From Sporosarcina sp. ANT_H38 (GTDB taxonomy: Bacteria > Bacillota > Bacilli > Bacillales_A > Planococcaceae), in assembly GCF_008369195.1 (NCBI RefSeq), contig NZ_VOBC01000001.1, positions 1,426,001 through 1,490,000 on the forward strand: 64,000 nt of DNA. Direction: 5' to 3'. Under the pieces are notes generated by a model that made no database searches, had not been told where the DNA came from, and saw only the letters and a list, made by a program, of their open reading frames with translations. Within the stretch, counting starts at the first letter, position 1. Each line of letters begins with the position of its first letter. This document shows, one piece after another, positions 5,804 to 22,717 of the stretch. Both the position numbers and the translations under genes were made by a program.

Positions 5804-6298
5804 AAGTAACCTCCATAATTAATTAGAAATAAAAAAGAGGTGCTATAACCCAAATGTGGTCAAAACGGCTCTAAATAGTAAAAAACGTCACCGAGTAATT
5901 GGAAAACTCTTGCTAACATTATTCGTTGGCACTAAATTGAACTACTCCAGCTTTCAATTCATTTAGAGCTGGTCGTACCTAAGGTTAGTAGAATTATCGC
6001 TACTTTTCCAGGATTTACACTTACGTTTATGGCTTAATTTTATCGAGTTCTGGATTTAGGACAATCCGATTTACGTAATGCGAGATGGTTAAAGTCCTTG
6101 TTACGGTAGCAACAACTTGTTTACGATAACATCTCATTTTGTATGTTAAGTATAAGTGCTACAGACTTAGTGGTCAATAATCGTTGATTTTCAACTGTCC
6201 CCAGACCATTCTCTCTCTCCTAAGCAACTTTGCTGTACATGGTAATTTCCATATTGTAAGGTTATTGTTGGAATATAGTAAGATGAGGAAGTGAACTC
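5804..6298. other. intergenic, no gene seen
   Basis: About 495 bases between the kinase-like gene and a DUF3817 gene on opposite strands. All frames are short and closed and no convincing repeat or RNA is visible. It holds the divergent promoters by position only. Confidence 0.6.
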
Positions 6299-6964: not shown

Positions 6965-8302
6965 ATGATGAGGAATTATACAAAAGAGGATATTCGCAAA
7001 TTTGTAGCAGAAGAACATGTGAATTTCGTTCGACTTCAGTTCACCGATATTTTAGGAATGATCAAGAACGTGGAAATTCCCATCAGTCAGCTCGAAAAAG
7101 CACTTGACAATAAGATGATGTTCGACGGATCTTCAATCGAAGGATTTGTACGTATTGAGGAATCCGATATGTACCTTATACCGGATCTTAACACTTGGAT
7201 GGTATTCCCGTGGCCCTCAGGTAAAGGAAGGGTTGCACGGTTCATCTGTGATGTTTCACTTGCTAATGGTTTGCCATTTACAGGCGATCCCCGCGGCAAT
7301 TTAAAACGTGTATTGAAAGAAATGAATGAGCTCGGGTTCACTGATTTTAATCTTGGACCAGAACCAGAATTTTTCTTATTTAAACTTGATGAAAATATGC
7401 AACCGACAATGGAATTGAACGACAATGGCGGCTATTTCGACCTTGCCCCAATGGACCTAGGAGAAAACTGTCGACGTGATATCGTCTTGGAACTAGAAGA
7501 AATGGGCTTCGAGGTTGAAGCATCTCACCACGAGTGCGCACCAGGACAGCACGAAATCGACTTTAAATATGCGGATGTACTGACCGCTTGTGACAATATT
7601 CAAACCTTCAAACTTGTCGTTAAAACAATTGCACGCAAACACGGTTTGCACGCAACATTCATGCCAAAACCCCTTTTCGGCGTCAGCGGATCAGGTATGC
7701 ATTGTAACGTTTCCCTATTCAAAGACGGTGAAAATGCTTTCGTCGACGAGCAAGGCGAATTGAAGTTAAGTAAAACAGCCTATCAGTTCATGGCTGGTGT
7801 CCTCGAACATGTACGAGGTTTTACAGCAGTGACAAATCCAACCGTCAATTCATACAAACGGCTCGTTCCGGGTTACGAAGCACCCTGCTACGTAGCGTGG
7901 TCCGCGCAAAACCGTAGCCCTCTCATACGGATTCCAGCATCTCGGGGCATCAGTACACGGATTGAAGTCCGTTCTGTTGATTCGGCAGCAAATCCCTATC
8001 TTGCGTTAGCTGCTATACTAAAAGCAGGCTTAGACGGTATTAAGCGCGAACTCGAGCCACCAAATCCCGTCGAGCGCAACATATACGAAATGGAACAGTC
8101 CGAACTAAAAGAGTTGGGTATTGACACGTTACCGACTGACCTCGACCACGCTCTCATAGCGCTCTCTGAAGATACAATTATCCAGGACGCTCTAGGCGAG
8201 CATATCTTCGCAAATTTCATGGAAGCGAAAAAGCGAGAATGGGAAAGTTTCCGAACTAATGTACACCCTTGGGAAATTGAACGCTATATGAAGATGTACT
8301 AA
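6965..8302 (+). CDS. glnA: glutamine synthetase, type I
   Basis: Makes glutamine from glutamate, ammonia and ATP. The 445-residue protein has the beta-grasp start ([22 protein letters not shown]), the [10 protein letters not shown] segment, the metal ligands of GPEPEFFLF, and GSGMHCNVS in the active site, all as in Bacillales GlnA. The ATG follows AAGGAGAGTGGC. In B. subtilis glnA follows the repressor gene glnR; here there is no glnR beside it, so this may be a second copy or a relocated gene. A long hairpin follows the stop. Confidence 0.95.
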
Positions 8303-8309
8303 AAATGAC

Positions 8310-8349
8310 AAAGAGCTAGGTTCCGAGATATCTCAGAACCTAGCTCTTT
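8310..8349 (+). terminator. glnA terminator hairpin
   Basis: A perfect 14-bp stem AAAGAGCTAGGTTC / GAACCTAGCTCTTT, continued inward by the self-complementary GAGATATCTC, directly after glnA. The T tail is short, so termination may be modest. Confidence 0.8.
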
Positions 8350-8457
8350 ACTATTTTTCAACTTCAAAAACATACACTGTAGTTCAAGAATTTCATGATC
8401 AAAAATTGAAAAATCGTCCCAAACGAATACAGTTGGATACATTGCGATAAGCTTTCA

Positions 8458-8904
8458 TCATTGTTTTTTAAATAAACCCTTACCATCCGGTCTTTCGCGC
8501 GGTGTGATATTCATAATGAAATACCCAATGATCAAAATCAGGATGACAAGTGAATAGAACAATGTATTTACCGGATTACCATGATCAACAATAATCAATC
8601 TGACCATCGCTGTAATACCGATATAAAGAAAATATCTTAACGGGAAATGATAATCTTCTTTGAAATACTTTATAATCATCGCGATAAACTCGAAATATAA
8701 AAAATAAATGAGGATATTCGCCAAGTAAAGTTGATAGTCGTGGCTTTCATTAATAATTAATGTATGACCAAAAACAAATAACTCCTTCATCAATAAATAG
8801 GATAAAATAACCGCTAGAAAAACGAGGGAAATATTCAGGATGATTTGCAGTGTTTTAGGGATAATCTTCAAGAAAAAAGCGTCCCCTTTTTTGTATTTCG
8901 ACAT
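8458..8904 (-). CDS. psiE: PsiE family phosphate-starvation-inducible membrane protein
   Basis: A roughly 148-residue protein with four membrane helices. The conserved core FEFIAMIIKYFKEDYHFPLR, followed by YFLYIGITAMVRLIIVDH, is characteristic of PsiE. The biochemical role of the family is unknown; the E. coli gene responds to phosphate starvation. I place the start at the ATG at 8904, nine bases after GGAGG, rather than at the ATG touching the ribosome binding site at 8913. It is convergent with glnA. Confidence 0.88.
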   Translation of the reverse strand: MSKYKKGDAFFLKIIPKTLQIILNISLVFLAVILSYLLMKELFVFGHTLIINESHDYQLYLANILIYFLYFEFIAMIIKYFKEDYHFPLRYFLYIGITAMVRLIIVDHGNPVNTLFYSLVILILIIGYFIMNITPRERPDGKGLFKKQ

Positions 8905-8913
8905 AAATATCAT

Positions 8914-9294
8914 CCTCCAGTACTACAATTCCTATTCTAAATAGGTTGGCATCATTGACAAGTAAACTATACGTTTCTTAAGCCTACTTTTCCCCTTTTA
9001 CAATTCCCTCTTAATTTATGGCTGTGCTAGAACTTATTAGCCGCATATGGACATAAACCACATATCTTTTTGAATTGAATGGTTTGTCTTTCACTCACAT
9101 ATTATAGCAAAATATAATAAAATAATAAATTGTAATGTACCATTCGTTCAAACCTATTATTAGTTATTTGAGCCTAGCATCTACGATTTAACGAATGCAG
9201 AAGACTTCCTGTATTTTGTTGAACTAGATTGGATAAATGAAACAGCCATTTGCCCCTATTTGATAGGACAATCCACTTTTAATAATAAGATGTT
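8914..9294. other. intergenic, no gene seen
   Basis: Divergent spacer between psiE and guaC. It is AT-rich with only short frames. The right end runs into the guaC promoter. Confidence 0.5.
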
Positions 9295-9323
9295 TTGACA
9301 TCTCATCTGAAATAATGTAAATT
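9295..9323 (+). promoter_or_regulatory. guaC promoter (sigma-A type)
   Basis: A perfect -35 TTGACA (9295-9300), a 17-base spacer and a -10 TAAATT (9318-9323) put the transcript start near 9330, about 55 bases before the guaC ATG. Confidence 0.6.
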
Positions 9324-9327
9324 AATA

Positions 9328-9371
9328 AAGTACGAACGTTTCATACTAAACGAATAATATTATTCGGTTTT
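9328..9371 (+). promoter_or_regulatory. PurBox-like pair / palindrome before guaC
   Basis: The B. subtilis PurR box is AWWWCCGAACWWT. On the minus strand, AAAACCGAATAAT (9371-9359) matches 12 of 13 positions. On the plus strand, AAGTACGAACGTT (9328-9340) matches 10. The two are inverted with 18 bases between them, the usual arrangement. A perfect 16-bp palindrome CGAATAATATTATTCG lies at 9351-9366. PurR control is known for guaC relatives in Bacillus; here it is inferred. Confidence 0.55.
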
Positions 9372-9384
9372 CGAGGTGTTATCA

Positions 9385-10368
9385 ATGGAAAATGTATTTG
9401 ATTACGAGGATATTCAATTGATTCCTGCAAAGTGTATAGTAAATAGCCGTTCTGAGTGTGACACATCCGTCATACTTGGTGAGCATACATTTAAAATTCC
9501 AGTAGTACCTGCAAATATGCAGACGATTATTGATGAAAGTGTCGCCATCAAATTAGCTGAAAATGGTTACTTCTATATTATGCATCGTTTTAATCCAGAA
9601 AAAAGAGCTGACTTTGTAAAAGATATGCAATCACGTAACTTAATCGCTTCTATTAGCGTTGGTGTTAAAGACGAGGACTATACTCTTATTACACAACTGG
9701 CTGCCGACAAAACTACACCTGAATTCATCACTATCGATATTGCACATGGTCATTCCAATGCTGTCATCAATATGATTCAACATATTAAACTGCACCTACC
9801 TAAAAGCTTTGTCATAGCTGGTAATGTAGGCACACCAGAAGCCGTTCGCGAACTTGAAAATGCAGGTGCAGATGCTACAAAAGTTGGTATTGGACCAGGT
9901 AAAGTATGTATAACAAAAATCAAAACCGGCTTCGGTACAGGAGGTTGGCAATTAGCTGCAGTTCGTTTGTGTGCAAGAGCAGCTACAAAACCTATTATCG
10001 CAGATGGTGGAATACGTACACATGGTGACATTGCCAAATCGGTACGTTTCGGTGCTTCTATGGTCATGATTGGTTCCCTATTTGCTGGGCACGAAGAATC
10101 TCCAGGTCAAACTATCGAAAAAGACGGACAACTTTTCAAAGAATACTTTGGCTCAGCCTCAGAATTCCAAAAGGGTGAAAAGAAAAACGTCGAAGGTAAA
10201 AAAATGTACGTCGAATATAAGGGTCCGTTAATGGATACTTTAAACGAAATGCAACAGGACCTACAATCATCCATTTCCTATGCTGGAGGTAACAAGCTAG
10301 ATGCCATCCGTACCGTGGATTATGTCATTGTGAAAAACTCTATTTTTAATGGAGATAAAGTGTACTGA
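9385..10368 (+). CDS. guaC: GMP reductase
   Basis: Converts GMP to IMP with NADPH, linking guanine salvage to adenine nucleotides. The 327-residue TIM-barrel protein has the active-site loop with Cys175 in [17 protein letters not shown], the [15 protein letters not shown] phosphate site and the [12 protein letters not shown] segment, as in the Bacillales GuaC subgroup. I choose the ATG at 9385, seven bases after GAGGTG; the GTG at 9376 overlaps that site. It is monocistronic with its own promoter, PurBox-like sites and terminator. Confidence 0.95.
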
Positions 10369-10383
10369 AAATTTATAGCTAAT

Positions 10384-10424
10384 AAAAACCCAATCAAGAA
10401 ATTGTATTTCTGATTGGGTTTTTT
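10384..10424 (+). terminator. guaC terminator
   Basis: The stem AAAAACCCAATC-AGAAAT / ATTTCT-GATTGGGTTTTT, with one bulge, is followed by a T run. It lies 15 bases after the guaC stop. Confidence 0.9.
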
Positions 10425-10525
10425 CCTGGGCTCTAATTGCATGTCAAATATAGAGAATAATAAACCTGTGGTAAAAATGTATAAGTGAGCAGAATAATTG
10501 ATTTCGAGTCATTTTCCCCAATGCT

Positions 10526-10870
10526 TTATAGTAATAAGAACAACAGCGTAAATGTAAGAATGCCCAAAACAATGATTGCTGCCGTATCTTTTATACTATC
10601 TTTCACGCGTAAATGTGTTAAGATTCCTCCAATTGCCGTCACCCCTAATAGTAATGCCCCTGTGATTCCACTTGTACTATTCCAAAATCCAATGATGAGT
10701 AAAATAGCTCCCACTAATTCAACAAGACCGGTTACGACACGGAACCATTGTGGTAATCTCCATTTGTCAAAATTCACTTTGTGCATTTGTGAACCAATTG
10801 TTTTGCCTACACCTGCCATTAAAAACATAGCGGCGAGTAAACCTTGGATAATAGAAGTTAAAATGGTCAT
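10526..10870 (-). CDS. DoxX family membrane protein
   Basis: A 114-residue, four-helix membrane protein of the DoxX-like family: LLAAMFLMAGVGKTIGS at the N-terminus, then RVVTGLVELVGAILLIIGFW. Members are linked to membrane redox or thiol metabolism, but no specific reaction can be assigned. The ATG follows GGAGGACGATAA. It is monocistronic and convergent with guaC. Confidence 0.82.
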   Translation of the reverse strand: MTILTSIIQGLLAAMFLMAGVGKTIGSQMHKVNFDKWRLPQWFRVVTGLVELVGAILLIIGFWNSTSGITGALLLGVTAIGGILTHLRVKDSIKDTAAIIVLGILTFTLLFLLL

Positions 10871-10949
10871 TTATCGTCCTCCATTTGTATTATCAGCAAT
10901 CGGCATTTTACCAATATATGCTTAATTTACAACGCTATCCATAAAAAAA

Positions 10950-11268
10950 CCTAAATGTGTAAGTCCTCCTTTAAAACATAAATCAATAGCAGAACAGATT
11001 TCCTTCTTCTACTCCCAGATGTAATCCTAATGAAACCGATACAGATGAGATATTACCGAAATATTTCATGCGCGTTAATGATTTTTCACATATTGATTCA
11101 ATAAATCTTAGATTAGCTATAAATGGTATGAACCAGTTAATATTTTCTCTAGAAACTTCACATTTGCAGTACCCAGTAACTGTTCCGGAGTCATTCCTTT
11201 CAAACTTTCTTCAATCGCTTTGACTGTTTTCTCATGAGTATTAGGCATAAGTTGAATTACGAATCCCC
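10950..11268 (-). pseudogene. chimeric relic: hslO fragment joined to fabH 3' fragment
   Basis: Bases 10950-11152 are a degraded copy of the 3' part of fabH (18078-18312), with small deletions including 21 bases. Bases 11141-11268 are a degraded copy of the middle of hslO (12980-13151), with a deletion of about 55 bases. The switch falls exactly in TATTTTCTCTAG, a 12-base sequence present in both parents (18301-18312 and 12980-12991). On the coding strand hslO residues such as NVKFLEK run into fabH residues NINWFIP out of frame, and the catalytic His of FabH is lost. It is non-functional. Confidence 0.9.
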
Positions 11269-11446
11269 AAATTTCTTGGTCGAGCTTTTAAATGTAGACT
11301 TTCTTGAATGTAATATTTGAATACCGCAAACTAATTACATCCTTCAACCAATTCAGACGAAGTATTTTCTCGTACTCAAAACAGTAAAAATAAGACATGC
11401 TTAGGTTTACGTTTGCAGGACAACATACATGGCAAGAGGTGAAGTT

Positions 11447-12706
11447 ATGAAAAAGATCTTACTAACCCTGATGGTCTTCTGTTTTATTTCCCAGTCCCTT
11501 AGCCATGCGCAAACGAACACATCTGATGTGAAAATTGCTTTTATTCGAGATGGCTATGTATGGCTCAAGGTCGAAGACAAAGAAATGAAAATAACGAAAG
11601 AAAAAGCGACGTATAATTATCCACCCCAATGGTCTTTCGATGGAAAAATGCTTCTTTATCAAAAAGAAGTGGCAGGGAATATCATTGATACGACAGGCAC
11701 TTCAAATGAATTATGGATTTATGATGTCGCAACAAAAAAGCATCGCAAAATTTTTTATGACGGCTCTAATCCGAAATGGTCTCCAATAGACAACATTGTT
11801 GCCTTTAGTGCTAGTGGTGTATTGAATATATCTGATTTGAAACGCTTCTATAATATCGCTTTAGGTGTAGACGATTATGCATGGCAGCCAGACGGAAAAG
11901 GTTTTATCGCGTCATCAAGTGCTTCTCTCCGCCCAGATGGATGGACTCATCTAATTCTTTACACCATTTCTATTGAGGGTTATCAAAACAGCAATTTCTC
12001 AACAAGTAATGCCAAAAAATTATTTGTCATACCCAAAGAGATAGGAAAAGATGACGTAAAAATCATCTCGATCAACGCGGGTTCGTTTACGTATTCACCA
12101 AACAAACAATGGATAGCTTTTGTCGTCTCCCCTACTGCTTCATGGTCGATGGACAGCGATATGCTTAGTGTGATTTCCGTAGACGGCAAAAACTTTGAAG
12201 TAATTGATGAGCTCAATAACGAATCCAAGCCGAAATGGGCTTTCACCGAAAACTTACTCGGTTATATTGCTGGCGGAGGAAGGATTGTCTTTGGTTTTAA
12301 AAATAAGGAGCTAAAAGTAACCGAACTCCCTGCCGATCAAACAGTAACGCTTACGCCAAAAAACTATGCGGAAATGGGATTTTCGTGGGTAAATGATGCT
12401 TCACTAATCGTTTCCAGGGTACAGGAAACCGAATGGTCCAATGATGCTAACAAGCGCCCTAATCCGGCGTTATATCTAGTATCACTAACCGACCCAAAAC
12501 AAATACAAATAACTAGGCCTCCAAAAGACCAAGGAGATTTTACGCCCATTTTTTTACCTTCCATCCAAAAAATTACTTGGACAAGAAAAAATGATTTAGT
12601 ATCTTCAAAAGGTGATTTATGGTCGGCTGATCCAAATGGTGACCATGCAAAAGTATGGATCCGTGATATCTGGTTAGGGATGTATGACTTTTTCCCTTCA
12701 CAATGA
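11447..12706 (+). CDS. secreted TolB-like beta-propeller protein
   Basis: A protein of about 419 residues with an N-terminal signal peptide (KKILLTLMVFCFISQSLSHA). It then has repeated WD40/TolB-type blades, seen as W-S-x-D/P-(G/N) motifs: PPQWSFDGKML, NPKWSPIDNIVAF, DYAWQPDGKGF, SFTYSPNKQWIAF, LWSADPNGDHAK. It probably acts outside the membrane, perhaps as a binding or lipoprotein-like sensor; no enzyme motif is visible. I start at the ATG at 11447, five bases after GAGGTG, not at the upstream ATG at 11429. It is convergent with hslO, sharing a terminator. Confidence 0.75.
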   Translation: MKKILLTLMVFCFISQSLSHAQTNTSDVKIAFIRDGYVWLKVEDKEMKITKEKATYNYPPQWSFDGKMLLYQKEVAGNIIDTTGTSNELWIYDVATKKHRKIFYDGSNPKWSPIDNIVAFSASGVLNISDLKRFYNIALGVDDYAWQPDGKGFIASSSASLRPDGWTHLILYTISIEGYQNSNFSTSNAKKLFVIPKEIGKDDVKIISINAGSFTYSPNKQWIAFVVSPTASWSMDSDMLSVISVDGKNFEVIDELNNESKPKWAFTENLLGYIAGGGRIVFGFKNKELKVTELPADQTVTLTPKNYAEMGFSWVNDASLIVSRVQETEWSNDANKRPNPALYLVSLTDPKQIQITRPPKDQGDFTPIFLPSIQKITWTRKNDLVSSKGDLWSADPNGDHAKVWIRDIWLGMYDFFPSQ

Positions 12707-12727
12707 TTGGGCGTAGTATGTGAAAGG

Positions 12728-12773
12728 AAACACAAATAAGCCATCCCTCTAGTGGATTGGCTTATTTGTGTTT
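12728..12773 (+). terminator. bidirectional terminator between convergent genes
   Basis: A perfect 16-bp stem AAACACAAATAAGCCA / TGGCTTATTTGTGTTT around a 14-base loop, placed between the stops of the TolB-like gene and hslO. Confidence 0.88.
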
Positions 12774-12793
12774 GGAACAATCTAGTGAAAAAA

Positions 12794-13672
12794 TTAATTC
12801 GCGGCTTCCAGTAATTCTATTAAATCCTCTTTAGTGAAATGGTAGTGTTCATTACACAGATGGCAGTGTGCATCAGCTTGCCCGTCTGACTGAATCATAT
12901 CTTGAATCTCTTCACTTCCTAAACTGAAGATGGCATTGGAAATTCTCTCCCTGGAGCATTGACATTGGAAATGAACAGCTATTTTCTCTAGAAACTTCAC
13001 ATTTCCAGTACCCAGGAGCTGTTCAAGTATCTGTTCCGGCATCAAACCTTGCTCAACCATCGAAGATATAGGAGTCATGCCTTTCAAACGTTCTTCTAAC
13101 GCATGGACTGTCTCCTCATCTGTACTAGGCATAAGTTGAATGATGAATCCCCCTGCGGCTTGAATTGTATGATCAGGATTCACCAAAACATCCATTCCTA
13201 CAGAGGAAGCTACTTGCTCTGAATTAACAATATAGGACGTAAAATCTTCAACTAGCTCACCCGATACAAGGGGAACATACCCAACAAATGGTTGCTGTAA
13301 TCCGATATCTTTTGAAACAGTAAGCATGCCATCCGTTCCAACAGCTCTTTTCACATCTAATTGACCTAGTTCATTCAACTCAAAATGAGTTTGAGGATTT
13401 GTGACGTAGCCTCTGACTTCCCCTTTGGTATTTGCATCTACCAGAATGGTTCCAATTGGACCACCACCATCTATTTTGACCGTGATTTTTTCTTCACCTT
13501 TGAGCATTGCACCAAGTATTACGCTGGCTGTCATAGAACGTCCAAGTGCAGCCGAAGCAGTTGGCAAAGTCTTATGACGACGTTGTGCTTCGCCAACACT
13601 TTCTGTTGTTCTCACTGCATAAGCACGTACTTGATTATTGTAAGCAGTTGCCTTTACTACATAATCCTTCAC
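12794..13672 (-). CDS. hslO: Hsp33 redox-regulated chaperone
   Basis: A cytoplasmic holdase activated by oxidation: zinc is released and disulfides form in the C-terminal switch. The 292-residue protein keeps all four zinc cysteines, Cys237/Cys239 in [10 protein letters not shown] and Cys270/Cys273 in HCHLCNEHY, plus the [13 protein letters not shown] linker. The start is GTG (13672) after an AGGA site. It begins 28 bases downstream of a flavin monooxygenase gene, so it is likely the last gene of the Rrf2 operon. Part of its sequence recurs in the relic at 10950-11268. Confidence 0.95.
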
Positions 13673-13699
13673 TTCAAACTTTCCTTTCTTCTTTCACAG

Positions 13700-14692
13700 T
13701 TATAAAAGTTCCTTTGCCAATAAACGATAGACATTCAAACGTTTCTCTTGCGAATGGGGAATACTGCAAATCATCGCTTCATCGAATCCATATTGCTGTT
13801 GCTCTTGTAGTAATCGCGTTGCAATTTCTTTTGAGGATCCCACTAAGTGGATTTTACGACTGTCTTTAATCATCATGCGATCCATTTCCGTCAGTGGATA
13901 ATCACGCGCTTCCTCAGGAGTCAATACTTGCCCGATTTTACCTTTCATAAACAGTAAACGCCAAATATCTTGAGGACCGGCCTCAAACTCAGCTTCTTCG
14001 GCTGTTTCAGCTGTTGTCACCATATAGGAAACATTGATTTCTGGCTTCTCCATAAATACTGAAGGTTGAAAGTTATTCTTATAAGCATCTAAAATCGATT
14101 TGGACAACTGACCGTTAAAAAACTGCGCAAAAGAATAGCCAACGCCCCTACGCCCTGCTTGAATAGCACTATTCCCACTTGAGCCCAATAGCCAAGCTTC
14201 AGGCAAAACAACGTGAGATGGCGTTGCAATCGTTTTATTGTATAGTTTATCTCCTGGCACTTCATCGTTGATCAATTGTAGTGCAATATCGAATTTTTCA
14301 TACATATTATTCACCATAGGAGGACGCCCTTCAGATAAAGCATAAATGGAATCGTTATCCCCTCCCGGAGCTCGTCCCACCCCAAAATCAATCCGTCCAG
14401 GCGAGAAAGCGCTAAGTGTTTTAAATACTTCAGCTAGTTTTAACGGAGAATAATGCATCATCATCGCACCGCCAGTACCAATACGAATTTCTTTAGTTTT
14501 AGCAGCTAAATGTGCCGCCGTTACTTCAGGAGCTGAACTTGCAAAGGTATTTGTTCCGTGATGCTCTGCCATCCACATTCGATGATAGCCCAATTCGTCT
14601 GCCACTATAGCCAGCTCTTCAGCTTTTTTTAAAGCATCAGGCGCACTATTTCCCTTCGTAACCGGTGCTTGGTCCAGTACACTTAATCTCAT
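13700..14692 (-). CDS. luciferase-like (LLM class) flavin-dependent oxidoreductase, group 1
   Basis: A 330-residue TIM-barrel protein of the bacterial luciferase/alkanal monooxygenase superfamily, which uses reduced FMN and oxygen. It has the family start LSVLDQAPVTKG, the RMWMAEHHGTNTFASSAPEV segment, GTGGAMMMHYSPLKLAEVF, FGVGRAPGGD and ESWLLGSSG-like WLLGSSGNSA. The substrate is unknown. The ATG overlaps the stop of the DUF896 gene by four bases (ATGA), so the two are probably translationally coupled. It is the fourth gene of the Rrf2 operon. Confidence 0.85.
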   Translation of the reverse strand: MRLSVLDQAPVTKGNSAPDALKKAEELAIVADELGYHRMWMAEHHGTNTFASSAPEVTAAHLAAKTKEIRIGTGGAMMMHYSPLKLAEVFKTLSAFSPGRIDFGVGRAPGGDNDSIYALSEGRPPMVNNMYEKFDIALQLINDEVPGDKLYNKTIATPSHVVLPEAWLLGSSGNSAIQAGRRGVGYSFAQFFNGQLSKSILDAYKNNFQPSVFMEKPEINVSYMVTTAETAEEAEFEAGPQDIWRLLFMKGKIGQVLTPEEARDYPLTEMDRMMIKDSRKIHLVGSSKEIATRLLQEQQQYGFDEAMICSIPHSQEKRLNVYRLLAKELL

Positions 14693-14910
14693 TTTGTTAA
14701 CTTCCTTTCCTCTTGTACTTTGTCAGGTGTAACATCATTACCAAGTGGATCCAGCACGGTTATTCCTGAGACAGTATTGAGAACCTGTCCGCGAATTTCA
14801 CGTAAGTAATCTTGTTGCAAGACAGTTTGTTCAACCATTTCTGCATTTGTCAAACCCTCTTGACGCTGTTTTTTTGCTAATTCATTAATACGATCTAGAC
14901 CTGTAATCAT
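14689..14910 (-). CDS. DUF896 (YnzC-like) small protein
   Basis: A 73-residue protein with the DUF896 signature LDRINELAKKQRQEGLTNAE, then QQDYLREIRGQVLNTVSGI and a DPLGNDVTP tail. Known YnzC structures are two-helix bundles; the function is unknown. I place the start at the ATG at 14910 (MITGLDRINEL), since the longer frame back to 14961 runs into the upstream gene without a ribosome binding site. It is sandwiched between two flavin monooxygenase genes, which is unusual for this family. Confidence 0.82.
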   Translation of the reverse strand: MITGLDRINELAKKQRQEGLTNAEMVEQTVLQQDYLREIRGQVLNTVSGITVLDPLGNDVTPDKVQEERKLTK

Positions 14911-14926
14911 CAATATTCCACTTCTT

Positions 14927-15874
14927 TCATAATGTATTTGTAGGGAAATGAGGGACCACATATTCTCCTAATTCTTGAATCACTTCTGCTGCCGGACGTG
15001 TACCGTACTTCAAACCAAACATTACATGATTAACTCCAGCATCTTGGTAAGCTTGTAAATAATCAATTAAAAACGTATAACCTGTTCTAAAGCCGCCACG
15101 TATCGGTTTGGGTGCTTCATTAGGATTCTCTGATAAGTCAATTGCCAAAGCTTGAGCAAATGGTTTAAATACGCCAGCTGCTTCTCGCCATTTCCTCACA
15201 AGTTCGCGCTGTTCATTCACCCCTTGAGAATAAAAGAGCCAACCATCTGTATGCTTGGCTAGCCACTCAATCGTTTGACCGGAATATCCCGTTCCAAAAA
15301 CAGGAATATCGGATAACATCGGTTTTGGAACTATATCACCTTGAAGCATCTCGACTCTCTCTGACTGAATTTGCGGGAAAGATTCTTTCCAAACTTTTTT
15401 CATGACTACTATTGACTCCCTAAATAACGCCGCATTTTCATCGCTATCCACTTTAAATGCGGGAAATTCGATTGGACGGTCTCCAGTCGCCGTTCCAAGT
15501 AAGAAGCGTTGATTTGATATTTTGTCTAGAGACGAAGCTGACTTTGCTACGTGAAGTGGGTGACGTAATGTCGTGACAATACTCGAAGTTCCGAGCGCAA
15601 TTCTTTTCGTATGCGCTGATACATACGCCAGTAATATCCAAGGGTCATAAGCAGCACCAACATCACCAAAGTTCGAATCGTAAATTGGAGAATCTCTAAC
15701 AAACAAAGAGGCAAACCCTAGATTTTCCGCCATTTTCGCTAGTATCATTTGTTCATCCAAATCCATCCTCGGGAAGCTTCCTTCGTAAGACTCCAAAGGA
15801 AATGCTAGCCCAAGCGTTAATTTATTCTCTTTAAATGTTTGTGCAAAACCATGATGTGCATGAAAGTTATCCAT
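14927..15874 (-). CDS. luciferase-type (LLM) oxidoreductase, BA3436-like
   Basis: A 315-residue flavin monooxygenase-type barrel of the BA3436 luciferase-like group. It has LTLGLAFPLESYEGSFP, FVRDSPIYDSNFGDVGAAYD, ALGTSSIVTTLRHPLHVAKS and GTGYSGQTIEWLAKHTDGW. It is distinct from the group 1 enzyme two genes downstream, and the substrate is unknown. It starts 20 bases after the Rrf2 regulator stop and ends 16 bases before DUF896, so it is the first enzyme of the operon. Confidence 0.85.
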   Translation of the reverse strand: MDNFHAHHGFAQTFKENKLTLGLAFPLESYEGSFPRMDLDEQMILAKMAENLGFASLFVRDSPIYDSNFGDVGAAYDPWILLAYVSAHTKRIALGTSSIVTTLRHPLHVAKSASSLDKISNQRFLLGTATGDRPIEFPAFKVDSDENAALFRESIVVMKKVWKESFPQIQSERVEMLQGDIVPKPMLSDIPVFGTGYSGQTIEWLAKHTDGWLFYSQGVNEQRELVRKWREAAGVFKPFAQALAIDLSENPNEAPKPIRGGFRTGYTFLIDYLQAYQDAGVNHVMFGLKYGTRPAAEVIQELGEYVVPHFPTNTL

Positions 15875-15894
15875 ATAATTATTCTCCTATTTTC

Positions 15895-16374
15895 TTATAA
15901 AACCATTCTGTCTTTTATCCATTCCTTTAAGCCTTCCACTTTTTCAGGGAAACGATTAGTTGTTTCTTCATCTAGAGATGCAATGGTTTCACGCTTCAAT
16001 ACAGTTTTCCAAGTGGATTCAGCTTCATCCATTAAATCGGTCAACAAACAGCACGCATCTTCTTTTTCTAGTTCAAGCATGTCGTCGAGAATTCCACTTG
16101 GAGAATAAAGCGATTGTTGACCTTCTATTGCGAGATACACATCATACACTCTAATCTCTTCAGGTTTTTTCTTTAATTTAAAGCCGCCCTTTACGCCTGC
16201 CACTGAGGAAATCAGGTCTGCGCTAACTAACTTTCTCAACAGTTTTTGAAAATAAGTGGGTGAGGTTCCCAACTGTTGACTAATTGCGTCTCCTGGTAAA
16301 ACAGCTCTATCTGGCAACATATTCAGTAATAGCATGGCGTAGACAGATTGTTCAACACCGGTTTTCATCTGCAT
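15895..16374 (-). CDS. Rrf2 family transcriptional regulator
   Basis: A 159-residue winged-helix regulator: SVYAMLLLNMLPD start, recognition region GTSPTYFQKLLRKL, wing GVKGGFKL, dimerisation helix, then an adjacent cysteine pair at Cys108-Cys109 (EDACCLL). Classical Fe-S Rrf2 proteins use three spaced cysteines; this one has only the pair, so redox or thiol sensing is possible but unproven. The start is the ATG at 16374, eight bases after AGGTGG. It heads the operon with the flavin monooxygenases and Hsp33 and probably regulates it. Confidence 0.88.
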   Translation of the reverse strand: MQMKTGVEQSVYAMLLLNMLPDRAVLPGDAISQQLGTSPTYFQKLLRKLVSADLISSVAGVKGGFKLKKKPEEIRVYDVYLAIEGQQSLYSPSGILDDMLELEKEDACCLLTDLMDEAESTWKTVLKRETIASLDEETTNRFPEKVEGLKEWIKDRMVL

Positions 16375-16425
16375 AATACCCACCACCTTTTTTAGACATA
16401 TTTTTCATCATTTTTCACCGAAACC

Positions 16426-16440
16426 GGATAATCATTATCC
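16426..16440. promoter_or_regulatory. palindrome upstream of the Rrf2 gene (possible operator)
   Basis: GGATAAT-C-ATTATCC is a perfect 7-1-7 inverted repeat 52 bases before the Rrf2 start. On the minus strand a TTGATA box lies about 17 bases upstream of it, so it overlaps a plausible -10 region. Autoregulation is inferred. Confidence 0.45.
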
Positions 16441-16574
16441 AGGTTAGTTTATCTTATCAATATCTAAAAGTAAAATCTTTTGTCTTATCTGTATGCAGGT
16501 AGAAAATCCCCTTAGTATTCCAATGAATCATCATGCAACCTATCTATAATTCTTTAATTTCTACATGCACATAC

Positions 16575-16612
16575 ACAAAAAAACTCCCTTCGCTGATTCA
16601 CGAAGGGAGTTT
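16575..16612 (-). terminator. azoR terminator
   Basis: A perfect 12-bp stem AAACTCCCTTCG / CGAAGGGAGTTT with an eight-base loop, followed on the minus strand by a T run, 22 bases past the azoR stop. Confidence 0.9.
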
Positions 16613-16634
16613 CTGAACTTATTTACTTGTAGTC

Positions 16635-17279
16635 TTAGACAGTAGCCGGTTGAGCAGTCAATGCTTTTGCAACTTCAGCCACTTTTTCAAGGCCTTGTGC
16701 GATGATTTGTTCTGCTTGATCTGGCATTGCATTATGACCTTCAATGATTACTTCTTCAACGGACATACCGAATACGCCACCAAATACGTTACGCATATAA
16801 GTAGCTGACATTTCCATTGGTGCAGTTTCAGGTGTTGAGTACACACCACCACGTGCATTGAGGATGATTGCTTTTTTCTCTGGCATTAAGCTGATCATTT
16901 GACCTTCTTCACTATATTTAAATGCATACCCTGCTTGATATACATAATCAACAAATGTTTGAAGTGGTGCTGGAATTGTTAGGTTCCACAATGGGAATGC
17001 GAAAACAACTACATCAGCTGCTGTTAAAGCGTCCATCGCTTTTTGTTTAGCCGCAACAAGACGTTGCTCAAGGTCAGATAGCTCTTCACCGTTTTGCATT
17101 TTTCCAAATGCGTTGAACAAGTCTTGACCGAAGTAAGGCATATCTTCAGAAAATACGTCAAACGTCGAAACGTTCAAACCCTTTGTATCTTGTACGTTTT
17201 CCATAAACGTTTCGTACATTTTGCTTGAAATTGCTTCTGAAGCTGGGCGGTTATTTGCTTTCACTACTAAAATATTCAT
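16635..17279 (-). CDS. azoR: FMN-dependent NADH-azoreductase
   Basis: A flavodoxin-fold NAD(P)H:quinone/azo reductase of 214 residues, acting on quinones and azo compounds and thought to protect against thiol-specific stress. It has ADVVVFAFPLWNLTIPAPLQ, the FVDYVYQAGYAFKYSEEG FMN-pocket segment and ILNARGGVYS. The ATG follows a GGAGGAAAGACAT site. It is divergent from a broken TetR-family gene that was probably its regulator. Mono-cistronic, with its own terminator. Confidence 0.92.
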   Translation of the reverse strand: MNILVVKANNRPASEAISSKMYETFMENVQDTKGLNVSTFDVFSEDMPYFGQDLFNAFGKMQNGEELSDLEQRLVAAKQKAMDALTAADVVVFAFPLWNLTIPAPLQTFVDYVYQAGYAFKYSEEGQMISLMPEKKAIILNARGGVYSTPETAPMEMSATYMRNVFGGVFGMSVEEVIIEGHNAMPDQAEQIIAQGLEKVAEVAKALTAQPATV

Positions 17280-17494
17280 TATGTCTTTCCTCCAAGTTGT
17301 TTTCTATTCTAGGCCATTCGTTTACCACGGCTGACCAAAATTTATTCTAGCATACAAATTAGCTTGAAATCAAGCAATTTAACTCTGAGGTTTTTTTAAC
17401 TCCCCAATTGTGCGATCATCATAGCTAGAAAGTCGATGATAATCACGTTGATACGTACTTCAATCATGACTTAAGTAGGTTTAGTCGACTTGGC

Positions 17495-17933
17495 GTGGAC
17501 TTTTGAAATACAAAGGACATTACTGATACCGCAACTGTCAATCGGACTACTTTCTATGCTCGTATCACAGATAAATATCAATTATTAGATGCCGTATTAA
17601 CGAAAAACCTCATGACAAAGATTTTTATTGAAATTCAGTTGCATGATGAACTTTCGGAAGAAACGATTAGTAAAATATTTGTTTCAGTTACAGTATTTCA
17701 ATCTGACCTTTCCTCACAACGTAAACGCAATTACGATGCCTTTATGTCTACAAATGAAAAATCAACCGCAGGAAAATGCGGAAACACTACGAATCTCTTC
17801 CGTCATGTTAAGCTGGGGCATTTACGGGGCTTCTGTCGATTGGCAGTATAATTGCCAACTTACAGCTGAACAAAATATCGAAATGGCACTTCCTCCTATT
17901 GCTAATGGCATGCGGTTTATAAATCCCAAGTAA
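17495..17933 (+). pseudogene. TetR/AcrR family regulator, decayed
   Basis: The frame KDITDTATVNRTTFYARITD, then KYQLLDAVLTKNLMTKIFIE and SEETISKIF, is a TetR DNA-binding domain and early ligand domain. It is preceded by an in-frame TGA. The frame shifts near 17760 into QENAETLRISSVMLSWGIYG, ASVDWQYNCQLTAEQNIEMA and a final TAA at 17931. The true N-terminus is missing. At least three lesions make it non-functional. It is divergent from azoR. Confidence 0.85.
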
Positions 17934-17942
17934 AATAAAAAA

Positions 17943-17977
17943 GCTGTTTAACAAGGATCTCTCTCACGTTAAACAGC
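17943..17977 (+). terminator. hairpin after the TetR pseudogene
   Basis: A perfect 10-bp stem GCTGTTTAAC / GTTAAACAGC, preceded by an A run and 10 bases past the last stop. The A run would serve as a T tail for minus-strand transcripts from fabH. Confidence 0.7.
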
Positions 17978-18049
17978 TCACTATTAGACGAATGTTCGGT
18001 TAAACGATCAAAATGATGACAATATATGATTGCTAGTAATGCTATATTC

Positions 18050-19036
18050 TTATGTTAAGTTCCAAGTTAAAACAAGTCCTAAATGTGTAAGTCCTCCTCC
18101 AAAACCATATAGCAATAACGTATCTCCAGAACATACTTTCCCTTCTTCTACTCCCAGATGCAGTGCTAACGGAATCGAAGCAGATGAGGTGTTGCCAAAA
18201 TACTTCATACTCGTTAATGTTTTTTCTATCGGAAATCCTGATTTTTCACATATCGATTCAATCATCCTTAGATTAGCGCTATGTGGTATGAACCAGTTAA
18301 TATTTTCTCTAGTTAATTCAGCCTTGTATAATAGCTCTTGCATTCCAATTGGGATAGTACGAGCTGCCCATTTGTATACTTCTCTTCCGTTCTGAACCAT
18401 TTTCCCATTGTTGATTAGTGGTTTATCATCCATTGTAGTTGCAAAGGTCGTTCGATAGACATGAATCCCCCCTTCACCATTCGTCCCCATATGGCTAGCT
18501 AGAAAACTAGGATTTTCCTGGTCGTATTCAACTAGCATTGCACCTGCGCCATCTCCGAATAAAATACAGGTTGTTCGATCTGTATAATCAGTTACTTTTG
18601 ATAAAGTCTCGGTTGCGACAACTAAAATCTTTTTATGTGCCTCGGCAGTAACTAAATTGTTAGCTAAATGTAATGCATAGGTGAAACCTGCACAGGTAGC
18701 ATTTAAGTCAAAAGCCCCTGTACAAGGAATATTAAAGTGACTCTGAATTTGACATGCCACACTCGGAAACGCATAGTCTGGAGTTGTTGTCGCTACTATA
18801 ATACAATCGACGTCTTGTAAGTCTGTATGATAGTTTCCAATCAAATTTTCGATCGCTTTAAAAGCCAAATGAGAAGCAAATTCTTCGTCCCCTGCAATTC
18901 TCCTTTCCTTCATACCAGTCCTCTGAACAATCCATTCATCATTCGTCTCTACCATTTTTTCTAAATCTTTGTTTGTCAGTCTCTTTTGCGGAACGTAGCT
19001 ACCAATTGCTGTTATACGCGCTTTAGATTTAATCAT
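18050..19036 (-). CDS. fabH: 3-oxoacyl-ACP synthase III (FabH family)
   Basis: Condenses an acyl-CoA starter with malonyl-ACP to begin fatty acid synthesis; Bacillales FabH prefers branched starters. The 328-residue protein has the catalytic triad: Cys115 in LNATCAGFTYAL, His in NWFIPHSANLR and Asn in YFGNTSSASIP. The start is the ATG at 19036, seven bases after GAGGTG. It stands alone, away from fabF, so it may be an accessory paralogue like FabHB. Branched acyl-CoAs from the bkd complex in this window would be its natural substrates. Its 3' part is duplicated in the chimeric relic at 10950-11268. Confidence 0.93.
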   Translation of the reverse strand: MIKSKARITAIGSYVPQKRLTNKDLEKMVETNDEWIVQRTGMKERRIAGDEEFASHLAFKAIENLIGNYHTDLQDVDCIIVATTTPDYAFPSVACQIQSHFNIPCTGAFDLNATCAGFTYALHLANNLVTAEAHKKILVVATETLSKVTDYTDRTTCILFGDGAGAMLVEYDQENPSFLASHMGTNGEGGIHVYRTTFATTMDDKPLINNGKMVQNGREVYKWAARTIPIGMQELLYKAELTRENINWFIPHSANLRMIESICEKSGFPIEKTLTSMKYFGNTSSASIPLALHLGVEEGKVCSGDTLLLYGFGGGLTHLGLVLTWNLT

Positions 19037-19051
19037 TAAATCACACCTCAT

Positions 19052-19345
19052 TTCCCTTTTTATTATAGCAGCTACTTATAGTACCTGGTAACAATTCGAG
19101 CCAAAAGTTTATTAACTATATATTTGGTTGCTTAAAAACCCTTAATACAGCCCCCTTTAGAGACGCTATTTGACCTTACGATATCGGACTAAATACTGCT
19201 ACATTACGTTTACTTTCTAGCTGAATGGATTATCGGTACCTGCAAAAGAGTATGGAAATACAAATTAGTTAAGCGTCCATTTTCAATTTATTAATAAAAA
19301 GTTGACGCATTGAAAATGGTTAGTCATCTGTAGCCTTCAACATCG
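19052..19345. other. intergenic with a partial inverted repeat
   Basis: No gene is seen. CCATTTTCAAT (19277-19287) pairs with ATTGAAAATGG (19309-19319), and GCGTC/GACGC overlap the same arms, giving two alternative foldings. There is no T tail, so it is not an obvious terminator. Confidence 0.4.
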
Positions 19346-20338
19346 TCAAAGCCACTTCTCTGTTAAATAAACCCTCTTATTCGTTGCATCTAACGCGACA
19401 TTACGTCCAATTGGCATTGGATGCATAGGGTGTGTATGACATGCATCGAATTCCGCAAGCACAGGAATATTTACATCATCTAGAATTTCTAACAACACTT
19501 CATATGGCTTACGGCCTGTACATAAATCATCAAAGCATTCATGTTTGCCTAGAATAATACCGCCTACCTTATCAAAAATACCGCTCACTTTGAGCATTGC
19601 GAAGTTTTTTTCAATAATAGACGTATTTTTGGCACAGTCTTCAATTAGCAATATGTCACCACTTTGAATTTCAGGCATATACGGACTACCTAAAAAACCG
19701 TACATTGTATTCAAATTACCACCAATCAATCTACCTTCAGCTAAGCCACCTATTACAGAAATCCATTCATTTTTATACAATGTTTTATCAGTGGTTTTTT
19801 CTTCCCAATTGACTGGCTCGTCCGACCAAAATGAAGGCATTGGTATTTCATACGGTAGACTTTGTGGTTTCATAAAGAGATTTTCAAAATATTGATAGGT
19901 ATCGTGTACGAGTGGTTCAAATTCACCGAAAGACGGAATCAAAGATGGACCATAAAAAGTTGGTATACCTGTTTTAGCATATAAACTTAACAACACTGCT
20001 GTTGCATCCGAATAGCCCACGACTATTTTGGGATTTGCTTTAAACGCTTCGTAATCAATGTATGGCAATATACTATTTGAATTTGTACCACCAATAGTAG
20101 ACATTATGAGCTTAATAGTAGGGTTTCGAATTAATTCATTTAATTCTGAGGCCCTTTCTTTGGGTGTTCCCGAACGATAACTATCAATCTTCCCTGTTAA
20201 ATTGCCTTCTATAATTTCAAAACCTTTACTTTCCAAAAACAGTTTACTTCTTTCAAATCGTAAATGATCAGTAACTGTTGAAGGTGAAGAGGGAGAAAAA
20301 ATTCCTATTTGATCGCCTTGCTGCAAGTATTGAAACAT
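19346..20338 (-). CDS. S66 family peptidase (LD-carboxypeptidase / MccF-like)
   Basis: A 330-residue serine peptidase of the S66 family, which includes murein LD-carboxypeptidases and the microcin C self-immunity protease MccF. The nucleophile is Ser110 in VVGYSDATAV, with the GGNLNTMYGFLGSPY segment and the His of DACHTHPMHP. The extended insert (SLPYEIPMPSFWSDEPVNWE) is more like MccF-type members than short LD-carboxypeptidases. It may cleave muropeptides or detoxify nucleotide-peptide antibiotics; sequence alone does not decide. It is a single gene in this region. Confidence 0.88.
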   Translation of the reverse strand: MFQYLQQGDQIGIFSPSSPSTVTDHLRFERSKLFLESKGFEIIEGNLTGKIDSYRSGTPKERASELNELIRNPTIKLIMSTIGGTNSNSILPYIDYEAFKANPKIVVGYSDATAVLLSLYAKTGIPTFYGPSLIPSFGEFEPLVHDTYQYFENLFMKPQSLPYEIPMPSFWSDEPVNWEEKTTDKTLYKNEWISVIGGLAEGRLIGGNLNTMYGFLGSPYMPEIQSGDILLIEDCAKNTSIIEKNFAMLKVSGIFDKVGGIILGKHECFDDLCTGRKPYEVLLEILDDVNIPVLAEFDACHTHPMHPMPIGRNVALDATNKRVYLTEKWL

Positions 20339-20518
20339 TTTAATACAGCCCCTTAATTTACATTTTATTTACTTTCTTATTTTTACTTCATCACTTAAAA
20401 CACTTATCGTTGAAGTTTCAGTATCGACTACATGTAAGGAACATGCTTCATAACCATATAACCTGTACACAACTCATTCATATTATCGAAAAATTGAAGC
20501 AAGAGTTATTGCCAAGGT

Positions 20519-21045
20519 TTAATATTGGCCTATGAAATTACAAGCAGATTCTTCCCATGCTTCATACTCATTCAGTTCGGTATTTGCTATAAAAGAAAAA
20601 ATGGTATGTAGAGCTTGGCTTGTAGTCGCTTCTCAATTTTCAAATCTCTAAACCTCTTATATGGAGAATCTGAATGATAGACCTTTTCATAAGGTGAGAA
20701 TGCCCAGTGAGGGTGTAAACATTCCCCATCTGCCCATTTAAATATCGCCACGTATCCCTTGACTGTTTCGTAATGTTTCTCTAATAGTATAAGATTCGGA
20801 TGAAACAGATCATTGTAATTAGGCATTGCACATTTTAACCGTAAGATCGCATCCTCCACTTCACCTGCATATTCAACAAATTTCTTTTGATTGTCAATCA
20901 TTACCCCAAATGAAAGATTACCTGAGTCTTGCTAATCAAATACACAAAATACTTCTCCCAAATCGTAAAGCCAGTTTAGATAAGCAGATTCTCTTAACTG
21001 AAATCGTTTACCATTAAAATTGTAATCGACTACTTTACTTCTCAT
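20519..21045 (-). pseudogene. serine/threonine kinase-like protein, broken
   Basis: From an ATG at 21045 with an ideal AGGAGG site the frame reads RFQLRESAYLNWLYDLGEVF and CVFD, then an in-frame TAG (20932-20934). The same frame resumes with QDSGNLSFGVMIDNQKKFVE, AILRLKCAMPNY, GYVAIFKWADGECLHPHWAF. A frameshift near 20620 leads to QALHTIFSFIANTELNEYEA and a stop at 20519. The GECLH and RLQALHTIFSF segments resemble a Bacillales kinase-like family whose catalytic DFYDGS part is missing here. It is a dead gene. Confidence 0.7.
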
Positions 21046-21416
21046 CTTAATTCCTCCTAATCCTACTCCAAAATAAAAAAACTATAGTTGCAAATAGCAG
21101 CTACAGCCCTAATCTTAATTCGAAAGGAGTAAATTTATGAGTTTCCAATCATATTTGAAATAGGTGACTATATGTAAACTGACTATTTAGCAACTGACTG
21201 TTACTTTCCATATAAATCACCTACTTTCAATTAAAGTTAGTTTTATTCTAACATTTTAAACTATTAAGTCAATTAAACATATATTACCTTTCAATTACAC
21301 TCAAAAACGCTTATAATGTTACTTTTGTAATTGTCGATAATGATCCAGACTTTTTTTTGATAATTAATTTATGCTTGTACGATTATAGTAATTAATATAA
21401 CTGCGGTATCATTTCA
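21046..21416. other. intergenic with a truncated gene start
   Basis: At about 21130-21170 a good ribosome binding site (AAAGGAGTAAATTT) precedes ATG and eight codons ending in TAG, on the plus strand. This looks like the leftover start of a lost gene. Nothing else is visible; the region is very AT-rich. Confidence 0.35.
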
Positions 21417-21998
21417 TCACACAAAAAGAGACACGGCACTGTACACCAATAACAACGCCATTACGATATTAAATTGCTTTTTATAGTTGGATAGAAACTT
21501 CTGGAACATAGAACCAAAGAGACTCCAACTACAAGTGCTCAGAATACCCACGAAACCTAAAAATAACGCCAGAAGTAATAAGCTACTAGTTGAAGTGTGA
21601 TATGGAAGGATATACGTCGCAACTACCGTAATGCCAAATAAAACACCCTTCGGATTTACAAATTGCAACAACATTCCTGACAAAAAACCGTTATATTTGC
21701 CGCTCTCATCATCATTTGCGCTAGTTGTACTAGTTATTATTTTGATTGCCAGATACAGCATATATCCCGCACCTAGAATCATCATCGGTAATTCAATTTT
21801 TGGAATGAAATTATGTAGCATTAGATTAAAATAAGTCGATACTATCATGATGACAAAAAAACCTGCACCTACGCCTAAGCAAAATCGAAGTGTCTTCTTA
21901 AATCCATATTGATTCGCAAATAACATCGCCATAATATTATTCGGACCCGGCGTAAAACTCATGATAAAAACATATAACAAGAATGACAATACTGGCAT
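21417..21998 (-). CDS. LysE/RhtB family amino-acid exporter
   Basis: A 193-residue membrane protein with six hydrophobic segments and the LysE-family signature SFTPGPNNIMAMLFANQYGF. It then has LRFCLGVGAGFFVIMIVS and the FVNPKGVLFGITVVATYILP segment. It probably exports amino acids or related small solutes. The start is the ATG at 21998, six bases after GGGAGAGG; the longer frame reaches across the divergent promoter. It is divergent from an XRE-cupin regulator, a common pairing that suggests control by it. Confidence 0.9.
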   Translation of the reverse strand: MPVLSFLLYVFIMSFTPGPNNIMAMLFANQYGFKKTLRFCLGVGAGFFVIMIVSTYFNLMLHNFIPKIELPMMILGAGYMLYLAIKIITSTTSANDDESGKYNGFLSGMLLQFVNPKGVLFGITVVATYILPYHTSTSSLLLLALFLGFVGILSTCSWSLFGSMFQKFLSNYKKQFNIVMALLLVYSAVSLFV

Positions 21999-22023
21999 AG
22001 TAGACCTCTCCCCCATTGCATAT

Positions 22024-22052
22024 GTTATACTGTCTAAAACAGACTGTATAAC
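22024..22052. promoter_or_regulatory. inverted repeat between lysE-like and XRE-cupin genes
   Basis: GTTATAC-T-GTCT-AAAAC-AGAC-T-GTATAAC is a near-perfect palindrome in the divergent spacer. A related half-site, GTTATATTGTACAG, follows at 22081-22094, nearer the regulator start. Its position suits an operator for the XRE-cupin protein acting on both genes; binding is inferred. Confidence 0.6.
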
Positions 22053-22113
22053 GTCTTTATTTTTATTGTACAATTCAGACGTTATATTGTACAGAAAAGT
22101 AGGAGTGTTTTTT

Positions 22114-22668
22114 ATGAAGGAAATACATCTTATCATTGCTGAGAATTTAAAGTCACTAAGAGAAAATAAGAAGTTAAGTCTTGAAAAGGTAGCGGAATTG
22201 ACAGGCGTAAGCAAAACGATGATTGGTCAAATTGAACGTGGTGTATCAGCTCCAACCATAACAACAATCTGGAAAATATCTAATGGCTTAAAGGTTTCTT
22301 TTACTTCACTCATCAATAACCCTCAACCTGATACAATTATTGTGTCCAAAAATGATATTCAAGTCTTATCCGAAGATAACGGAAAGTATCGGGTCTATCC
22401 ACATTTCCCTTTCGAAGATGATAAACGCTTTGAAGTGTATACAGTTGAGATCGATAAAGGTGGATTCCTAAGTGCGGATGCGCATATGGAGGGGACTGAA
22501 GAGCTGTTAACAGTTTTTGACGGAGAGCTAACGATACGTGTAAATAACGAGGAATATCGCCTAGGGTGTGGTGATTCCATCCGATTCAAGGCCGACAGAC
22601 CCCATAGCTATCAAAATTTCAGTGAAAAATTGACCCGCTTAAGTATGGTGTTGTATTATCCGAATTAA
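22114..22668 (+). CDS. XRE family regulator with C-terminal cupin domain
   Basis: A 184-residue regulator. Residues about 1-65 form a helix-turn-helix of the Cro/XRE type (LSLEKVAELTGVSKTMIGQI, ERGVSAPTITTIWKISNGL). Residues about 105-184 form a small cupin sensor (AHMEGTEELLTVFDGELTIR, LGCGDSIRFKADRPHSYQN). Such proteins often control a neighbouring exporter or catabolic gene in response to a small ligand. The start is the ATG at 22114 behind AGGAG, not the frame's earlier ATG at 21961 inside the divergent gene. It ends with its own terminator. Confidence 0.9.
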   Translation: MKEIHLIIAENLKSLRENKKLSLEKVAELTGVSKTMIGQIERGVSAPTITTIWKISNGLKVSFTSLINNPQPDTIIVSKNDIQVLSEDNGKYRVYPHFPFEDDKRFEVYTVEIDKGGFLSADAHMEGTEELLTVFDGELTIRVNNEEYRLGCGDSIRFKADRPHSYQNFSEKLTRLSMVLYYPN

Positions 22669-22670
22669 AT

Positions 22671-22717
22671 AGGGGTTGTCCTATGAATAGTGAATTATTG
22701 CTTATGGGACAACCCCT
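22671..22717 (+). terminator. terminator after the XRE-cupin gene
   Basis: The stem AGGGGTTGTCC / GGACAACCCCT with flanking pairs begins three bases past the stop codon. Confidence 0.82.

Follow-up and report, generated by a model that had tools for sequence, protein, structure and literature searches.

Bacterial gene order changes fast, and duplication of a segment followed by unequal loss from its copies is one proposed route to a new order; such loss often leaves little trace. A possible trace is found in Sporosarcina sp. ANT_H38, in a stretch of 64,000 nucleotides analysed here as a whole (the window; contig NZ_VOBC01000001.1, positions 1,426,001 to 1,490,000). A first-pass annotation, made from the sequence of the window, drew attention to a short decayed segment to the left of a TolB-like gene, in which the 3' part of a fabH gene runs directly into the interior of an hslO gene. 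Both parents stand intact to its right, and the locus raises the question of how pieces of the two came to be joined at this place, and what the joint says about the history of the genes around it. The genome that carries the window (G000; 4.63 Mb in 19 contigs) encodes a second fabH (C1:2337954, 43% amino acid identity) and a second hslO (C7:81912, 61%), and we refer to the paralogues that gave rise to the relic as fabH2 and hslO2. The features of the locus are listed in Table 1.

Table 1. Features of the relic locus, in window coordinates (LLM, luciferase-like monooxygenase; a dot marks features given without a strand)
Feature	Position	Strand	Remarks
guaC	9376..10368	+	followed directly by intact fabH2 in G027 and G087, and by a fabH2 scrap in G065
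DoxX_2-like gene, between guaC and the relic	10526..10870	-	
Decayed 3' part of fabH2	10946..11152	-	corresponds to ~18074-18312 minus about 10 and 21 bases
Joint TATTTTCTCTAG, common to fabH2 and hslO2	11141..11152	.	located by BLASTN and exact-match comparison
Decayed interior of hslO2	11141..11268	-	corresponds to 12980-13152 minus about 46 bases
Stretch between the relic and the upstream region of the TolB-like gene	11269..11379	.	
TolB-like gene (label of the first-pass annotation)	11429..12706	+	without a Pfam match; a single weak NCBIfam match, well below its cut-off
Intact hslO2 (HslO paralogue), second parent	12794..13672	-	
Two LLM genes, DUF896 gene, Rrf2 regulator, azoR	13700..17279	-	
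Intact fabH2 (KAS III paralogue; first parent), the additional copy to the right of azoR	18050..19051	-	

Both ancestries of the relic, and its joint at a 12-base sequence, are seen when positions 10500-11800 are compared with the window by BLASTN. The fabH part aligns as 10915-11160 with 18043-18320 (E 5e-40, 197 of 278 columns identical, gaps counted), and the hslO part in two blocks, 11141-11176 with 12980-13015 (35/36) and 11187-11268 with 13071-13152 (69/82). Over aligned bases, the relic is identical to intact fabH2 at 174 of 213 positions and to the local hslO2 at 117 of 142. Chance similarity is ruled out by comparison with 1000 dinucleotide shuffles per test: the fabH half scores 132 bits against a shuffle maximum of 28.3, the hslO half 82.5 bits against shuffle maxima of 35.4 (without the 12-mer) and 29.7 (with the 12-mer), and for neither half did any of the 1000 shuffles score as high. 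BLASTN, shuffles and a whole-genome search thus agree with the first-pass reading of a single chimeric fabH/hslO relic. Its concern that unrelated fabH or hslO genes might be equally close is not borne out, since across the whole genome the relic has no match at E ≤ 0.001 beyond fabH2 and hslO2. Of the limits it gave (10950 and 11268), the parents and regions hold, while the ends shift slightly, with fabH homology beginning near 10946 and a weak hslO2 similarity extending to 11279 when the sequences of relatives are used as comparison. Apart from this weak similarity, nothing in the window or in nine relative loci matches the stretch up to the TolB-like upstream region at E ≤ 0.01.

The switch between the parents lies inside TATTTTCTCTAG, whose sole occurrences in the window are at 11141, 12980 and 18301, in each case on the plus strand, confirming the positions in the two parents that were first proposed. 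It is the longest exact same-strand stretch common to fabH2 and hslO2, and the switch thus falls within a stretch identical in both parents, as in a joint made by illegitimate recombination at short homology. The existence of such a match is only mildly unusual (a stretch of at least 12 bases shared with hslO2 appears in 36 of 500 fabH2 shuffles); a switch exactly on the 12-mer would be the expected product of short-homology joining. The 12-mer is present in the intact G000 parents, missing from fabH2 of G027 and G087, and not exact in hslO2 of the six relatives aligned (11/12 in G074). Its presence at the time of the event is accordingly argued from the intact G000 genes, given the G027 and G087 sequences. 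Homology of about 12 bases at the joint is a classical feature of duplications and deletions in bacteria, and Edlund and Normark reportedly described in 1981 joints of ~12 bp in ampC duplications of E. coli, formed by illegitimate recombination at short direct repeats. The relic joint likewise lies at a short identical same-strand stretch, but differs from these in being old and decayed and in having both intact parents to its right.

A relic common to the relatives is ruled out by DNA search, in which the fabH2|hslO2 joint was found in one of 68 genomes of the genus. Matches to the relic in five other genomes (G002, G009, G014, G027 and G087) lie inside intact fabH2 or hslO2, and none of them is a separately inserted fragment of the kind that the first-pass annotation had considered.

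The relic looks dead, judging from an even spread of substitutions over codon positions in its fabH half and from frame-breaking deletions, and its description as old and decayed is upheld. Substitutions found only in the relic number 10/8/7 over the codon positions of the fabH part, a loss of bias typical of a pseudogene; in the same part, those found only in intact G000 fabH2 number 0/0/7 and those only in G027 5/2/12. The relic-only substitutions of the hslO half (5/2/4, or 5/2/6 with G002) are too few to show neutrality alone. Of its deletions, those of about 10 and 46 bases disrupt the reading frame and that of 21 bases preserves it, and each gene survives in part only. In the minus-strand frame 10983-11210, the NWFIPHSANLR of intact fabH2 reads NWFIPFIANLR, with loss of the His that we take to be catalytic in FabH.

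Comparison of gene order in relatives suggests where fabH2 once stood. The order in the window is glnA-guaC-DoxX-relic-TolB-hslO2-...-azoR-fabH2-LD-carboxypeptidase-LysE-XRE-phnA. In G027 and G087 it is glnA-guaC-fabH2-LysE-XRE-phnA, and in G065 glnA-guaC-LysE. G014 and G081 have glnA-hslO2-LLM-DUF896-LLM-Rrf2-azoR-LysE-XRE; G063 has the same order, but with a fragment of XRE only and LysE not found, and G074 has the hslO2-azoR block, with glnA and LysE absent from the stretch compared. In G009 and G002 the order is glnA-LysE-XRE-TolB-hslO2-LLM-DUF896-LLM-Rrf2-arsB, so that the TolB-hslO2 block lies beyond LysE-XRE, a further change of order in the same interval. The LLM, DUF896, Rrf2 and azoR genes accompany hslO2 in relatives (azoR is not found in G009 and G002), and the TolB-like gene, 85% (G009) and 84% (G002) identical at the amino acid level, adjoins hslO2 there too. 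By DNA identity to G000 over two core regions, the closest of these are G009, G065 and G002 (87-93%), followed by G027 (84%) and by G014, G063, G081 and G074 (77-82%). A side observation in this comparison is that the first LLM gene of G002 is in two pieces (L014 8366-9354; 8366-8515 and 8512-9354) and in one piece in G009, which suggests a frameshift in G002.

Remnants of fabH2 are found in the matching interval of three relatives. In G065 (L017 10069-10230), the guaC-fabH2 spacer survives (103/121 identical to that of G027), as do some 30 bases from the 3' end of fabH2, the latter within a 62/73 alignment (E 8e-17); most of the G065 shuffle-test score comes from the spacer. Between glnA and LysE, G002 has a 52-column fabH2 scrap (L014 16672-16721, E 2e-8 against the G027 region) and G009 one of 32 columns (L013 ~6232-6263, E 3e-4), which is marginal at 31.1 bits against a shuffle maximum of 29.7. 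None of 1000 shuffles reached the score of any of the three. Most likely, then, the fabH2 of the common ancestor stood between guaC and LysE and decayed at this site in G065, in the G002/G009 line and in the species of G000; at least two other lines (G065, and G002 with G009) appear to have lost it at the same place. The position of fabH2 to the right of guaC in G027 and G087, together with the scraps in G065, G002 and, weakly, G009, makes the relic most likely the mark of the old home of fabH2, and the intact gene at 18050 a displaced extra copy. The left flank of the relic consists of DoxX and unmatched sequence and is unlike the guaC-fabH2 spacer of G027, so the position of the relic is argued from gene order.

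We think it probable that a local duplication with differential loss at the old fabH2 locus produced both the relic and the new gene order. A stretch with fabH2 and TolB-hslO2-LLM-Rrf2-azoR would have been duplicated in tandem in the G000 lineage, and each copy would then have lost a different set of genes. The fabH2 copy beside guaC would have been cut at its 12-base match to hslO2 and joined to the hslO2 interior, while the copy to the right of azoR was kept intact; tandem duplication from fabH2 to azoR with differential loss would give the order guaC-(fabH2 remnant)-TolB-hslO2-...-azoR-fabH2-LysE directly. The hslO2 piece could have arrived in either of two ways. With three tandem copies of fabH2-TolB-hslO2-LLM-Rrf2-azoR (F-T-H-L-R-A), deletions could leave F1/H1, T2-H2-L2-R2-A2 and F3 in line, once a deletion at the 12-mer had fused fabH2 to hslO2 within the first copy and subsequent deletions had cleared the rest. 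With two copies, a break in the first fabH2 could have been repaired by short copying from the nearby hslO2. We infer tandem duplication as the source of the second fabH2 copy, and the same holds for both routes to the hslO2 piece. That the relic keeps, in order, pieces of an ancient array of at least three tandem units is a tentative reading, with somewhat less than one chance in four by our estimate; if true, one chromosome would carry a readable record of how this redox and lipid segment was once amplified and then collapsed to give a new order. The past amplification proposed in the first-pass annotation is thereby neither established nor excluded, one of the two routes using three tandem copies and the other only two.

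An extra copy in a new order and a remnant at the old place, as differential loss predicts, are both present as far as gene order goes, with the reservation noted for the relic flank. G000 is the only one of 61 genomes with both fabH2 (at least 56% amino acid identity) and hslO2 (at least 74%). Neither a duplicated or intermediate state nor two full copies of fabH2 or hslO2 side by side were found in the genomes searched (68 for the joint, 61 for the fabH2 protein and 61 + 7 for the hslO2 protein; fabH2 in six of the 68, G085, G086 and G088-G091, was covered by DNA search only). DNA and protein comparison found no other remnants of the supposedly lost block copies in the window.

The age of the relic can be estimated from its changes and those of its parents. 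Relic-only changes amount to 25/202 in the fabH half and 11/129 in the hslO half (13/129 with G002 as third row), and intact-only changes to 7/202 and 5/129 (4/129 with G002), and the two halves look about equally old. The event would be about as old as the split of the G000 species from G009/G002. Intact fabH2 has since changed at 7 of 67 third positions, a figure comparable to half of the 16-17% by which hslO2 of G000 differs at third positions from that of G009 or G002. The glnA gene was dropped as a clock because that of G000 (6965-8302), for which exchange is possible, is about equally distant at 4-fold sites from the four relatives compared (0.45-0.49 for G027, G065, G009 and G002), though their core-region distances differ. 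In the fabH half, the relic shares the base of intact G000 fabH2 and not that of G027 at 19 sites, the converse holding at 7, and a maximum-likelihood tree of this half leaves the relic/G000 fork open. In the hslO half, it sides with G000 at 8 sites and with G009 at 5, or with G000 at 7 and with G002 at 4; two of the sites common to relic, G009 and G002 look derived, as does one common to relic and G000. The best tree of this half groups the relic with G000 (72/87), and the other two groupings are not rejected (p-AU 0.39 and 0.12). The identity of the hslO half to hslO2 of G009 and of G002 (116/145 each) nearly equals that to the local gene, so this half need not derive from the local hslO2 after the split.

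The main rival to local duplication with differential loss is that a simple deletion in a guaC-fabH2-hslO2 order made the relic, and that a sister species afterwards donated the TolB-hslO2-...-fabH2 block. Taken alone, the relic would indeed be the one-step product of such a deletion, and several distances suit an uptake: the TolB-to-Rrf2 block is 86% identical at the DNA level to that of G009 and G002, the 4-fold divergence of hslO2 from these two (0.20-0.21) is lower than that of guaC from G065 (0.35) or of glnA from G009/G002 (0.45-0.49), and the divergence of the intact genes from the relic is similar to that between sister species. Yet the identity of the block to G009 (86.2%) is close to that of the hslO1 region (87.5%), as for vertical descent, and is exceeded by the fabHA region (90-93%); moreover, no donor with the order TolB-hslO2-...-azoR-fabH2 is present among the relatives' stretches compared. 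We consider the uptake unlikely, at about one chance in five. A further rival is the account given in the first-pass annotation, a tandem duplication of 12980-18312 or its circularisation at the 12-mer, with the joint subsequently brought to the left of TolB by reinsertion. The orientation and sequence of the joint fit that account, as was pointed out; they are given equally by deletion in a guaC-fabH2-...-hslO2 order. The position of the relic had seemed to call for a circle or a rearrangement, whereas the relatives place the old fabH2 to the right of guaC, where by gene order the relic stands, and an excised and reinserted circle is then not needed. The account does not predict a relic at the old fabH2 site and requires an extra move that has left no trace in the window, and we regard it as improbable, more so than the uptake.

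Far less credible still are two further explanations. Two unrelated fragments landing side by side, or a chimeric assembly, are bare possibilities given the 19 contigs, but the joint falls exactly on the longest stretch common to the parents, the two halves look about equally old, and the relic differs by 13-18% from both parents, unlike an assembly error. Equally far-fetched is retention of the relic for a function, as an RNA pairing with fabH2 or hslO2 mRNA or as a promoter of TolB or DoxX. Its plus strand is antisense to both parents, and promoter-like matches occur at 10905-10941 and 11085-11114, although the region has 7 such matches against 5.2 +/- 2.9 in shuffles. Against a function, the substitutions of the fabH half fit neutral decay, the relic was not found in the 67 other genomes of the genus, and no RNA family matches at the Rfam gathering threshold in 8300-24500. 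A mobile element origin was also considered and, as far as plasmids go, rejected: the search gave one record, a Metabacillus fabH at 69% identity that reflects the gene family and lacks the joint. This record (NZ_OK052578.1 96950-97185, 69% identical to the relic fabH part) does indicate that fabH of this type can ride plasmids.

The local duplication with differential loss that we favour for the relic resembles routes of gene-order change already proposed. In the SNAP model, a segment is duplicated and its copies then lose different genes, and pseudogenes that match an active copy are suggested as what may be left of old duplications (Brandis and Hughes 2020, PMC7055797). The relic locus similarly shows a changed gene order and a decayed copy that matches an active one, but spans several kilobases, while the SNAP abstract speaks of tens to hundreds of genes; we do not file the relic as a proven case, because the intermediate was sought and not found. 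Rearrangement of an operon cluster by duplication and asymmetric loss has likewise been described for Gammaproteobacteria and Bacilli (PMC8046335). The route to the new order proposed there is the same, and includes Bacilli; there the gene orders of a conserved cluster were reconstructed, whereas at the relic the sequence scar of the loss is visible. The relic is thus a real scar and an instance of an already known kind of event, though an unusually readable one, and it probably records an old local duplication, partly lost again, by which neighbouring genes were reshuffled. The decayed copy that bears the joint, the intact gene at its new site and the relatives that show the former site are mutually consistent, which makes the locus a small worked case of gene-order change and involves no new principle.

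Several other features of the neighbourhood were recorded. The DoxX_2-like gene is missing from the stretches compared of nine Sporosarcina-group relatives, and was rejected as a travelling partner of the relic: nine of 68 genomes, G000 included, have a match, the others at 36-58% amino acid identity, and DoxX stands beside guaC in none of the mapped loci. The Rrf2-hslO2 block of Lysinibacillus contaminans has, ~2.5 kb away, a DoxX-like gene (L058 4357-4686) with 63% amino acid identity to that of the window; DoxX may thus be part of the neighbourhood. Jeotgalibacillus proteolyticus encodes Rrf2-LLM-DUF896-LLM-hslO2 (L057 7306-10873) at 81-92% amino acid identity, which is close for another genus and makes transfer of the block between genera possible. 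Between azoR and fabH2, positions 17507-17933 hold a regulator remnant in two frames (114 and 105 amino acids, stop to stop), which we, like the first-pass annotation, read as a putative TetR. Separate from the relic, the window contains further diverged repeat pairs, 35753-35926 with 39635-39839 (E 1e-11) and, inverted, 39627-39707 with 54340-54420 (E 6e-7).
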